A stretch of DNA of 42,136 nt from a virus. Positions 3,998 through 37,520 of this stretch are shown one piece after another (the first letter of the stretch is position 1; each line of letters starts with the position of its first letter). The stretch is from positions 1-42,136 of the IMG/VR virus record IMGVR_UViG_3300003322_001129; one strand, 5' to 3'. Both the position numbers and the translations under genes were made by a program. The notes under the pieces were generated by a model. It ran no database searches, had not been told where the DNA came from, and was given only the letters and a program-made list of their open reading frames with translations.

Positions 3998-4816
3998 ATG
4001 AATCTCGACGAGTATGATGAAGTAAAACGAACTAAGGTTCTAGTGTACGGGGAACCAAAATCTGGAAAGACTGCAACAGTCGGCAAACTTGCAGAAGAAG
4101 GATTTCAGCTTCACTGGTTTGATCTGGAAAACGGAATTAAAACCCTGATGAATCCTGAAATGCTCAAGCCGGAATTCAGAAAGAACGTGCATGTTTATAA
4201 CATCCCAGACCACAAGGAGCTTCCTATTGCTCTCGACGCCTTGAGGAAACTTTTTCGTGGCGGTGCTCGTAAGTATTGTTATGTGCATGGAATAGATCGT
4301 TGCCCTGCCTGTGCAAAACAAGTAGGAAACAAGTGGAGCGATGAGATTGATCTTGCCACGTTTGGTGACAAGGACATTCTTGTCATTGATTCCTGGACTC
4401 AGGTTTCAAATTCTGCACTGAACAAGGTCATCGCAAAAGAATACAAAAAAGACGATGAGTACAAGCCTTCTTGGGATGACTGGCGTTTGCAGGGGAGTTA
4501 TCTCGATGAAGTACTCACCAAGATTCAAGTAGCGAACATCAACATTGTTGTGATTTCTCACGACGTGGATGTGGAGAAGGATGAGAAGAAAGAGAAGATC
4601 GTTCCCGTTGGCGGCACACGCAACTTCAGTCGCACAATGCCAAAGTATTTCGACGAGGTTGTGTACATGCAAAGGATGAATAAGCAACACAAAGCTTATA
4701 GCAGCACACTCTGGAATAACACCCACTTGACAGGCGGCAGAAGTGGTGTAGCATTGGAGAGCGACCAAAATCTTGGGCTTGCCAATCTGTTCAAGGGAAA
4801 AGGTAGCACTCCTTAA
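3998..4816 (+). CDS. RecA-like / Sak4-type single-strand annealing ATPase with CCHC-like finger
   Basis: 272 residues from ATG 3998 (GAGGA upstream). Walker A is GEPKSGKT at residues 18-25 and Walker B is ILVIDSW with Asp131; the tail VVISHDVD and GGTRNFSR segments fit the AAA_24/RecA-like phage ATPases to which Sak4 annealases belong. These promote annealing of single-stranded DNA during phage recombination. Between the two Walker motifs sits Cys94-x2-His97-x4-Cys102-x2-Cys105, a probable zinc-binding knuckle. It follows a PD-(D/E)XK nuclease and precedes an SSB-like gene, a gene trio expected for recombination. The ATPase call is firm; annealase activity is inferred from family and neighbours. 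Confidence 0.82.
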   Translation: MNLDEYDEVKRTKVLVYGEPKSGKTATVGKLAEEGFQLHWFDLENGIKTLMNPEMLKPEFRKNVHVYNIPDHKELPIALDALRKLFRGGARKYCYVHGIDRCPACAKQVGNKWSDEIDLATFGDKDILVIDSWTQVSNSALNKVIAKEYKKDDEYKPSWDDWRLQGSYLDEVLTKIQVANINIVVISHDVDVEKDEKKEKIVPVGGTRNFSRTMPKYFDEVVYMQRMNKQHKAYSSTLWNNTHLTGGRSGVALESDQNLGLANLFKGKGSTP

Positions 4817-10536: not shown

Positions 10537-10683
10537 ATGATCAAATGGCTAAAACATGTTTACTGGTTATATACTCATGCGCACGATTGGCGCTGTTTCT
10601 GGCACTATGGCGGAGGATTAAAACGCTACAAATGCAAACAATGTGGCAAAGAAGTTTCTGCATGGTCACATCCAGACGAGTAA
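10537..10683 (+). CDS. Zinc-ribbon-like micro-protein (48 residues)
   Basis: ATG 10537 follows GGAG at 10527-10530. The 48-residue product is rich in Trp, His and Tyr and carries Cys-x2-Cys-Gly-Lys near its C-terminus, with a further Cys at residue 20 and several His (for example in CFWHYGG), so one zinc ion could be bound. The YKCKQCGKEV pattern resembles half of a zinc ribbon. It is the last plus-strand gene before the convergent late block and is probably expressed by read-through of the terminator just upstream. Function unknown. Confidence 0.7.
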   Translation: MIKWLKHVYWLYTHAHDWRCFWHYGGGLKRYKCKQCGKEVSAWSHPDE

Positions 10684-10706
10684 AAAAAATCCCCTCCGAA
10701 GAGGGG
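10682..10706 (-). terminator. Terminator of the late (minus-strand) block, UUCG loop
   Basis: Read on the minus strand, CCCCTC-TTCG-GAGGGG forms a perfect 6-pair stem with a TTCG loop, then A and a run of T (10682-10690 are A on the plus strand apart from one T). It lies 66 bases past the last late gene and abuts the stop of the last plus-strand gene. A short AGCC/GGCT hairpin at 10711-10722 is the only structure left in the gap. Confidence 0.88.
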
Positions 10707-10771
10707 TAAAGCCTCACGGCTCGTGCGAAGAACTTTTTATTTTCCCCTGTTTACCGCCCTGAGATTCACGC

Positions 10772-35090: not shown

Positions 35091-35197
35091 ACGTCTGGTC
35101 TTCTGACAATTCATCCGCCATGGAGTTGAGAAGTTATTCGACTCCATTGGGATGCACTGTCGCATCGCACTCCACTATCAATCTAGGAGTTTCCATC

Positions 35198-35815
35198 ATG
35201 ACTAAGTCTTTCCGTGTCCACACTTCTATCGCCTCGGCAATGACTGTCAAGGCAGTCGGTGAAGTTGTCATTTCTGCCAAGTGGAAGGAAACCAAGAATC
35301 AGAAATCCATGGAACGTGCAGTCATTCTCCCCATGGAATGTCTCAAGGCGCCTGATGTGGTTGAGAGTTTCAGGACGCTGGTTGAATCTGCACTGCTCTC
35401 CACTGCTGAAGGCATCCTCAAGAAGCATTGCAACGAAGAGCCGAACAATTTCGAAATCCTCGCAAACATGTTCGATCGCCCCAATCTCTGTGAAACCTTT
35501 ATCTCTTCTGGCAATTCCTGGATGAGTAAAGAAGAACTGGAACTGGCATTCACTGGCTCTGCAACCTGGAAGAGAATCACGAGCAGAATCGAATTCCAAA
35601 ACAATAAGACCTACCAACAGGCTGCAAACTATTTCAAGGAATCCATTCTCAAACTTACAGGAAAGGCAACGAAGATTTCCGCAGAAGAATGTGACAAGAT
35701 CATTTCCAAGATTGAAGATTCTGATCTGGAAACAGAGTTTGGGAGTTTTGTTGTCAAGCGGCTGACCAGCATCAAGAGCAACAATACTGAAACCTTCGAT
35801 CTTGATTCACTCTGA
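35198..35815 (+). CDS. Hypothetical early protein (205 residues)
   Basis: ATG 35198 follows TAGGAG and was chosen over the upstream in-frame ATG at 35060, whose leader would be Ser/His-rich and without site. The protein is soluble, mixed fold, with a helical second half rich in Lys, Glu and Ser. No motif of an enzyme or DNA-binding fold is obvious. It is directly followed by the large structured gap, so it may be the last gene before a replication or regulatory region. Function unknown. Confidence 0.7.
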   Translation: MTKSFRVHTSIASAMTVKAVGEVVISAKWKETKNQKSMERAVILPMECLKAPDVVESFRTLVESALLSTAEGILKKHCNEEPNNFEILANMFDRPNLCETFISSGNSWMSKEELELAFTGSATWKRITSRIEFQNNKTYQQAANYFKESILKLTGKATKISAEECDKIISKIEDSDLETEFGSFVVKRLTSIKSNNTETFDLDSL

Positions 35816-35857: not shown

Positions 35858-35950
35858 AAGCTCCCATGAACCAGAAGATTTAATTCTGGAACTCTGTAAC
35901 ATTTGGTTACATTGATTCACGGATTGTTTGATGAATCTTCATGGGAGTTT
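35858..35950 (+). ncRNA. Four-way (cloverleaf) structure of unknown family
   Basis: Outer stem AAGCTCCCATGAA (35858-35870) with TTCATGGGAGTTT (35938-35950): 13 pairs, one G-U. Inside it three perfect 6-pair hairpins: CCAGAA/TTCTGG (35871-35889, 7-base loop), TGTAAC/GTTACA (35895-35911, 5-base loop), GATTCA/TGAATC (35914-35937, 12-base loop). The first and third hairpins touch the outer stem with no spare base. A pyrimidine-rich TCTTCT follows the 3' arm. It is not a standard tRNA: the first arm stacks directly on the outer stem and I see no T-loop motif. It could act as RNA or as a DNA cruciform; on which strand it is transcribed is assumed. Confidence 0.6.
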
Positions 35951-35993
35951 TCTTCTGCGATTGAAGAATTGTAAAATGATTTATTTTTGGGGT

Positions 35994-36252
35994 TGTAGCG
36001 TGTAGCCTGTAGCATTTGGGGTACCCCTCCCTCCCCAACTATTCCTTCTATTCTTTCTCTCTTATTCCTTTTCCCTCTCGTGGGAGTTCTTTTATTTGTG
36101 TAACTGATTGTAACAGAGAATTTTAAAGAACCCCCTCTAAAAAAGCAATCCAATATCACCCAACACAACAATAATAACCACAACAATAACAAGACCCCAA
36201 GGGGGCATGAGGGACCAGGGGAGGTGAAATGCTACATGCTACATGCTACAGC
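35994..36252. repeat. Inverted triplets of a TGTAGCN heptamer
   Basis: Three tandem heptamers TGTAGC(G/C/A) stand at 35994-36014 and, as the reverse complement ATGCTAC three times, at 36231-36251. With the flanking T and A the arms are 24 bases each (35994-36017 and 36229-36252) and differ at 2 positions, both the seventh base of a heptamer. About 211-215 bases lie between. Inverted iteron blocks like this are typical binding sites for an initiator or a repressor; no binding protein is known here. Confidence 0.75.
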
Positions 36253-36374
36253 CCCTCAGGGATTGTTGTTTTCTATTCTCTCAACAACACCAACAGCCAA
36301 GAGGAGCGAAGCGACGAGGATACAAACCTCTTAACGTTTTACGCTCAAGATCCAAGCGACGAAAGGAACTCATC

Positions 36375-36524
36375 ATGTATGAAAGTCTCAAGCGCCCACT
36401 GTTGCACGAAGTAAGCAATGCCTATTATTTATGGTGGCATCAAATGCAAAACTGGACATGGCCGCAATACTGGATTTGCGGAGATGATGAATGGGAAATG
36501 TATCTAATGGGAGGAGAACTTTAA
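36375..36524 (+). CDS. Small Trp-rich protein (49 residues)
   Basis: ATG 36375 follows AAAGGAAC; the frame is open further upstream but into the repeat region. The product has five Trp, three Tyr and several Met in 49 residues and ends Gly-Gly-Glu-Leu. Such composition suggests a small folded or membrane-interface peptide. No family recognised. Confidence 0.6.
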   Translation: MYESLKRPLLHEVSNAYYLWWHQMQNWTWPQYWICGDDEWEMYLMGGEL

Positions 36525-37148: not shown

Positions 37149-37412
37149 ATGCCACTGCAAACACCGGCTCAAAGATTCGAAGCTCCACACGTTAAATTTC
37201 ATCCACGGTGGTTCAAAATCAGCAGCGATAACACCGGGGCAGTGACTACTTGGTATCATCCAGATCCCAAAGAGGTCATTCAACGATGGCTGAAAGCAAT
37301 TCAAGACCCGATTTGGATGAGGTTGTTTGAGATTATGGAATCTCCACGAATCACTGCTCATCGCGTACATCTGCCGCCGAAAAAGCAAAGACCCAACAGT
37401 TCGGAATTCTGA
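37149..37412 (+). CDS. Hypothetical protein (87 residues)
   Basis: ATG 37149 after TTGGAGAAA. Rich in Pro, His, Trp and Lys/Arg; basic. No family recognised. Followed by a terminator hairpin, so it ends one small transcription unit of the right early arm. Confidence 0.65.
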   Translation: MPLQTPAQRFEAPHVKFHPRWFKISSDNTGAVTTWYHPDPKEVIQRWLKAIQDPIWMRLFEIMESPRITAHRVHLPPKKQRPNSSEF

Positions 37413-37439
37413 CATTTCTACTTTCAATATTATCAAGTT

Positions 37440-37480
37440 CATCCCCTAGGGCAACAAGCTTTAGGGGATGCATTTCTTTC
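37440..37480 (+). terminator. Terminator hairpin in the right early arm
   Basis: A 13-pair stem (37440-37452 with 37458-37470; 11 Watson-Crick, 2 G-U) around an AACAA loop is followed by CATTTCTTTC. The stem is very stable, the T-run broken, so termination is likely but may be partial. It lies between two small same-strand genes. Confidence 0.7.
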
Positions 37481-37520
37481 AAGTGCATCATCCTCAACTC
37501 AACTGCGTGAAGGAATAATC

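Follow-up and report, generated by a model that had tools for sequence, protein, structure and literature searches.

A four-way RNA cloverleaf behind an early gene of a podovirus-like phage: a candidate branched intrinsic terminator

What is the function of a very stable cloverleaf behind an early phage gene? The window analyzed here is a 42-kb IMG/VR virus record (42,136 nt), and the noncoding gap that follows one of its early genes, referred to below as gene X, holds a four-way cloverleaf of 93 nt. Computation establishes the structure of this element, its position, and its strand preference. We propose that it forms the 3′ end of the gene X messenger and that it probably acts as a branched intrinsic (Rho-independent) terminator. 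That it ends transcription and shields an origin-like region located downstream is what we infer from the textbook terminators that related phages carry at the same site. Most likely, the role of the cloverleaf is an ordinary one, that of an unusually branched end-of-message signal, and it represents no new class of RNA.

Structure and setting of the cloverleaf

The genes for packaging and the head in the window (large terminase, portal, and head protein) are podovirus-like, and the window also encodes a primase and a DNA polymerase of family A. Its large terminase shares ~34–35% identity with those of phage 119X and its relatives. The late gene block runs leftward from 34.4 kb, and the early block runs rightward. 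Gene X has no match in Pfam or PHROGs and no relative among 50,697 phage records or in bacterial and archaeal genome contigs; a fold search of its predicted structure (mean pLDDT 82) against viral structures returned no significant match. The original prediction placed the cloverleaf in a noncoding gap, and this gap indeed extends from the gene X stop at 35815 to the next plausible start at 36375. Within it, the cloverleaf begins 43 nt 3′ of the stop codon and ends 38 nt 5′ of a large inverted repeat. The features of the region are listed below.

35198–35815, + strand: gene X, a 205-residue early protein with no assigned family; orthologues in ~30 related contigs
35858–35870, + strand: outer stem, 5′ arm, AAGCTCCCATGAA
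35871–35889 (35871–35876/35884–35889), + strand: hairpin 1, CCAGAA/TTCTGG, loop of 7, flush with the outer stem
35895–35911 (35895–35900/35906–35911), + strand: hairpin 2, TGTAAC/GTTACA, loop of 5
35914–35937 (35914–35919/35932–35937), + strand: hairpin 3, GATTCA/TGAATC, loop of 12, flush with the outer stem
35938–35950, + strand: outer stem, 3′ arm, TTCATGGGAGTTT
35948–35956, + strand: T-rich tail, TTTTCTTCT, directly after GGGAG and overlapping the three outermost pairs of the outer stem (T-tail score 4.79)
35989–36017, + strand: three TGTAGC units that make up the left iteron array and one arm of the inverted repeat, outside the cloverleaf
36018–36226, no strand assigned: origin-like core, a C/T-rich stretch followed by an A+T-rich stretch beside a run of C (from the sequence and from the same layout in the relatives L088, L092, L096, and L091)
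36227–36255, − strand: three GCTACA units that make up the right iteron array and the opposite arm, outside the cloverleaf

In the RNAfold MFE structure (−35.3 kcal/mol), positions 35858–35950 of the + strand fold as an outer stem around three hairpins, which reproduces both the coordinates and the four helices originally proposed, one of 13 pairs and three of six. The earlier claim that every helix is free of mismatches holds for the inner hairpins, each of which consists of six Watson-Crick pairs, and has to be amended for the outer stem, where one of the 13 pairs, G35860-U35948, is a G·U wobble. Pair probabilities are ~1 in the core of all helices, also when the folded sequence includes up to 800 nt of context. 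The outermost A-U pairs of the outer stem fray, and the last of them has a pair probability of ~0.4–0.6; the CUCCC/GGGAG part that closes this stem directly 5′ of UUUUCUUCU pairs with a probability of 1.0.

A chance origin of the cloverleaf is excluded, in keeping with the original judgment that such a fold would be hard to explain by chance. In a z-score scan of 841 segments of 100 nt, all on the + strand of the window, the cloverleaf segment ranks first with a z of −7.3 (runner-up, −5.4), and the MFE fold of 113 nt that include the cloverleaf has a z of −5.0. The motif, defined as an outer stem of at least 10 pairs enclosing three hairpins of at least six, occurs in none of 150 dinucleotide shuffles of the whole window, and a second cloverleaf of this grade was not found in the ~1.8 Mb of partly redundant loci that were fetched. 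No Rfam family matches the cloverleaf at gathering or permissive thresholds, a blastn search of phage records with the region gave no match, and a search of viral contigs for the exact DNA sequence of the 5′ arm was likewise negative. Literature searches on cloverleaf or multibranched terminators and on iterons in podoviruses found no paper. We also note three further strongly folded 100-nt stretches on the + strand of the window: 4603–4702 (z −5.4); 35103–35202 (z −4.5), which sits just 5′ of gene X; and 37403–37502 (z −4.3), which contains the hairpin CATCCCCTA/TAGGGGATG and lies 3′ of a small gene.

The gene X site in related phages

Relatives of the window can be detected with alignments, unlike with single-sequence queries. 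Single-sequence scans of viral contigs with gene X and the small terminase found none, and alignment-based scans with gene X, the large terminase, and one early gene further right recovered gene X orthologues from ~30 further contigs. We compared the site by inspecting the 200 nt 3′ of each orthologue's stop codon. In this stretch the cloverleaf is present in no relative (gene X identity, 33–63%, none closer having been found); it is replaced whole by another structure and not altered helix by helix. By a strict scan, simple terminators lie past the gene X orthologue in 16 of 32 records, compared to a mean of 1.9 and a maximum of 6 in shuffles, with the 32 records being partly non-independent (L130 equals L135 over the stretch examined). 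Examples are found in L134, L126, L105, L091, and L089, and that of L134 is a textbook terminator, CCCGCC-GAAA-GGCGGG-TTTTTTTT. The terminator of L150 carries a hairpin inside its loop (GCCCAC-[..ACGC-GCAT-GCGT..]-GTGGGC-TTTTTT) and shows how a branched form could arise at the gene X site.

The nearest relatives of the window have two-tier or twin hairpins at the site. For example, the hairpins of L086, L087, L094, and L096 are two-tiered, and a short run of T (TTTC) follows their inner stem; in L087, the best fold is at most 1.1 kcal/mol more stable than a three-way junction. In the close relatives L088 and L092, the hairpins are long and strong but lack a T-tract. The hairpins of L087 and L094 are followed by what looks like a small reading frame that has a plausible ribosome site, and several more distant relatives have no terminator, the next reading frame apparently starting close behind gene X. 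The hairpins lacking a T-tract and the reading frames behind hairpins suggest that the site may have a role other than termination.

Pseudomonas phage 119X (Fredfastierviridae) provides a comparison from a named phage. A GCCCCCTAGTCGAAAGGCCAGGGGGTTTTTT terminator follows its gp01, the positional equivalent of gene X, although homology between gp01 and gene X is not detectable. As in the window, the small terminase and a short block of early genes point away from each other, and the site lies between the last gene of this block and a C/T- and A+T-rich region. Unlike the cloverleaf, the 119X terminator is a plain hairpin with T6.

Two side observations concern the surroundings of gene X. First, in distant relatives (L128, L108, L145, and others), gene X, encoded on the + strand of the locus, and the large terminase are co-directional, while in the clade of the window the two genes diverge; the gene X block has apparently been inverted or relocated. 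Second, a palindromic AATGATTCNNATT element recurs near gene X or the terminase genes in many relatives at the positions below, whereas the part of the window inspected contains no such element. The element resembles the bacterial Fur box, the site of an iron regulator, and a Fur box in a phage control region would be unusual.

L089: 7406–7418 and 7445–7457
L091: 6957–6969 and 6999–7011
L119: 615–627
L131: 3622–3634
L147: 851–863
L150: 1000–1012
L105: 709–721

Termination, processing, or an independent RNA

We propose the following sequence of events. Host RNA polymerase would complete gene X, and the three small hairpins would fold upon emerging, pulling the far-apart arms of the outer stem toward each other. 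This stem would then close via CUCCC/GGGAG just before UUUUCUUCU, the polymerase would let go, and transcription would stop short of the iteron-bounded origin-like region. Host-type termination is expected because no RNA polymerase gene was recognized among the proteins scanned in the window and because a canonical intrinsic terminator (CCCCTCTTCGGAGGGGATTTTTTTT, 10682–10708, − strand) ends the late operon, after the last late gene and between the converging gene blocks.

How closely does the cloverleaf match known terminators? Like intrinsic terminators, it lies shortly after a stop codon, has a stable stem whose G-C-rich base stands immediately before the tail, and has a T-rich tail directly after that stem. 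The tail is of moderate quality only: TTTTCTTCTGCGATT has a T-tail score of 4.79 versus 5.38 for the textbook terminator of L091, other bases interrupt its T-tract, and three T residues take part in outer-stem pairs. Unlike in intrinsic terminators, the stem of the cloverleaf spans a 67-nt interior that contains three hairpins. Terminators have been defined by a loop of at most 13 nt and a total length of at most 59 nt, with typical loops of ~4 nt (PMC12207403). The cloverleaf, with 67 nt between its arms and 93 nt in total, exceeds the TransTermHP limits (loop ≤13 nt, hairpin ≤59 nt), and simple-terminator scans of the window did not flag it. Clusters of hairpins 3′ of stop codons have been reported as terminator units in which a T-tract is not always present (PMC8355165). 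The cloverleaf likewise has several hairpins past a stop codon, its termination as a unit being a prediction; in contrast to the neighboring hairpins of those clusters, its three hairpins are enclosed by a common stem.

The main rival to termination is a processing or stabilizing role, in which the cloverleaf would be a 3′-UTR element, either an RNase III or RNase E processing site or a knot that holds off 3′ exonucleases, and the message would be cut here or would end further downstream. The great stability of the fold is consistent with such a role, as are the long hairpins of L088 and L092 with no T-tract and the small reading frames and plausible ribosome sites behind the hairpins of L087 and L094. 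However, textbook terminators prevail here across the wider family, and in the window a T-rich tail comes after the stem, so that we consider processing or stabilization possible but on balance unlikely. The suggestion in the original prediction of an unknown phage RNA or processing signal fits best of those it made, in the modest form of a 3′-end or terminator structure of the upstream mRNA; its extension to a conserved new class of RNA is unsupported, the cloverleaf occurring in no relative across the 33–63% range of gene X identity.

The cloverleaf could also, or instead, be an independent small or regulatory RNA of the phage, a four-way junction with a function of its own. The quality of its fold, first of 841 segments and unmatched in shuffles, is far beyond what a terminator needs. 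Such an RNA is nevertheless conserved in no relative, matches no Rfam family, and shows no sign of its own promoter, and we regard it as doubtful. We attach the same low probability to a phage-specific structured RNA, whether a small RNA, a decoy, or a nuclease-resistant 3′ end, that would have newly arisen at a fast-evolving terminator site.

Strand preference and the adjacent origin-like region

The cloverleaf was originally described as lying directly before inverted repeats in a probable control region. These repeats are the paired iteron arrays 38 nt downstream, whose 29-nt arms occupy 35989–36017 and 36227–36255. Inverted iteron pairs are found in five phages (the window, L088, L092, L096, and L091), with arms 209–257 nt apart; those of the four relatives are located as follows.

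L088: 8692–8715/8944–8967
L092: 6687–6713/6966–6992
L096: 8713–8729/8987–9003
L091: 8549–8575/8826–8852

The iteron unit varies among these phages (TGTAGC, TGTATC, TGTAAC, GTGACA), the layout is constant, and the arms match within each phage. From this pattern the iteron-flanked core looks like a replication origin whose repeats would be co-evolving with a putative initiator, both sides changing together.

Does the structure act as RNA or as DNA? In all nine loci of the inner group, the complement folds less stably than the gene X-sense strand, whose z is better in seven of the nine; the contrast is clearest in L092, where the sense strand has a z of −3.7 versus +0.1 for the antisense strand. 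Because the sense strand folds better in nine of nine loci, the evidence favors a structure that acts as RNA in the gene X sense rather than as a DNA cruciform. In the window itself, both DNA strands of the cloverleaf fold with a z of ~−5, and G·U pairs, which form on one strand only, account for part of the strand difference.

These data bear on the proposal that the element is a cruciform at an origin, or more broadly a cruciform or single-strand DNA structure belonging to the neighboring origin, for example a loading site for a protein or primase. The iteron arrays only 38 nt away and the z of ~−5 on both strands of the window would fit such a structure. Equal structure on both strands across relatives is not what we observe, however: the sense strand is preferred at every locus, the antisense strand of L092 has no excess structure, and L091 and L089, which have iteron arrays in the same place, carry an ordinary terminator at the site. 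A role as origin DNA thus appears highly improbable. Finally, we rate a tRNA-like element low, as was anticipated from the absence of tRNA loops: ARAGORN calls no tRNA, Rfam has no match, and the likeness to tRNA and tRNA-like cloverleaves is confined to the four-way outline, the outer stem having 13 pairs.

The comparison across relatives shows that the structures at the 3′ end of gene X turn over fast in these phages while their position stays fixed. If the cloverleaf does act as a terminator, then a terminator can have arms ~70 nt apart, provided that hairpins folded beforehand span the distance, and branched terminators of this kind would escape standard programs that limit the loop to 13 nt.
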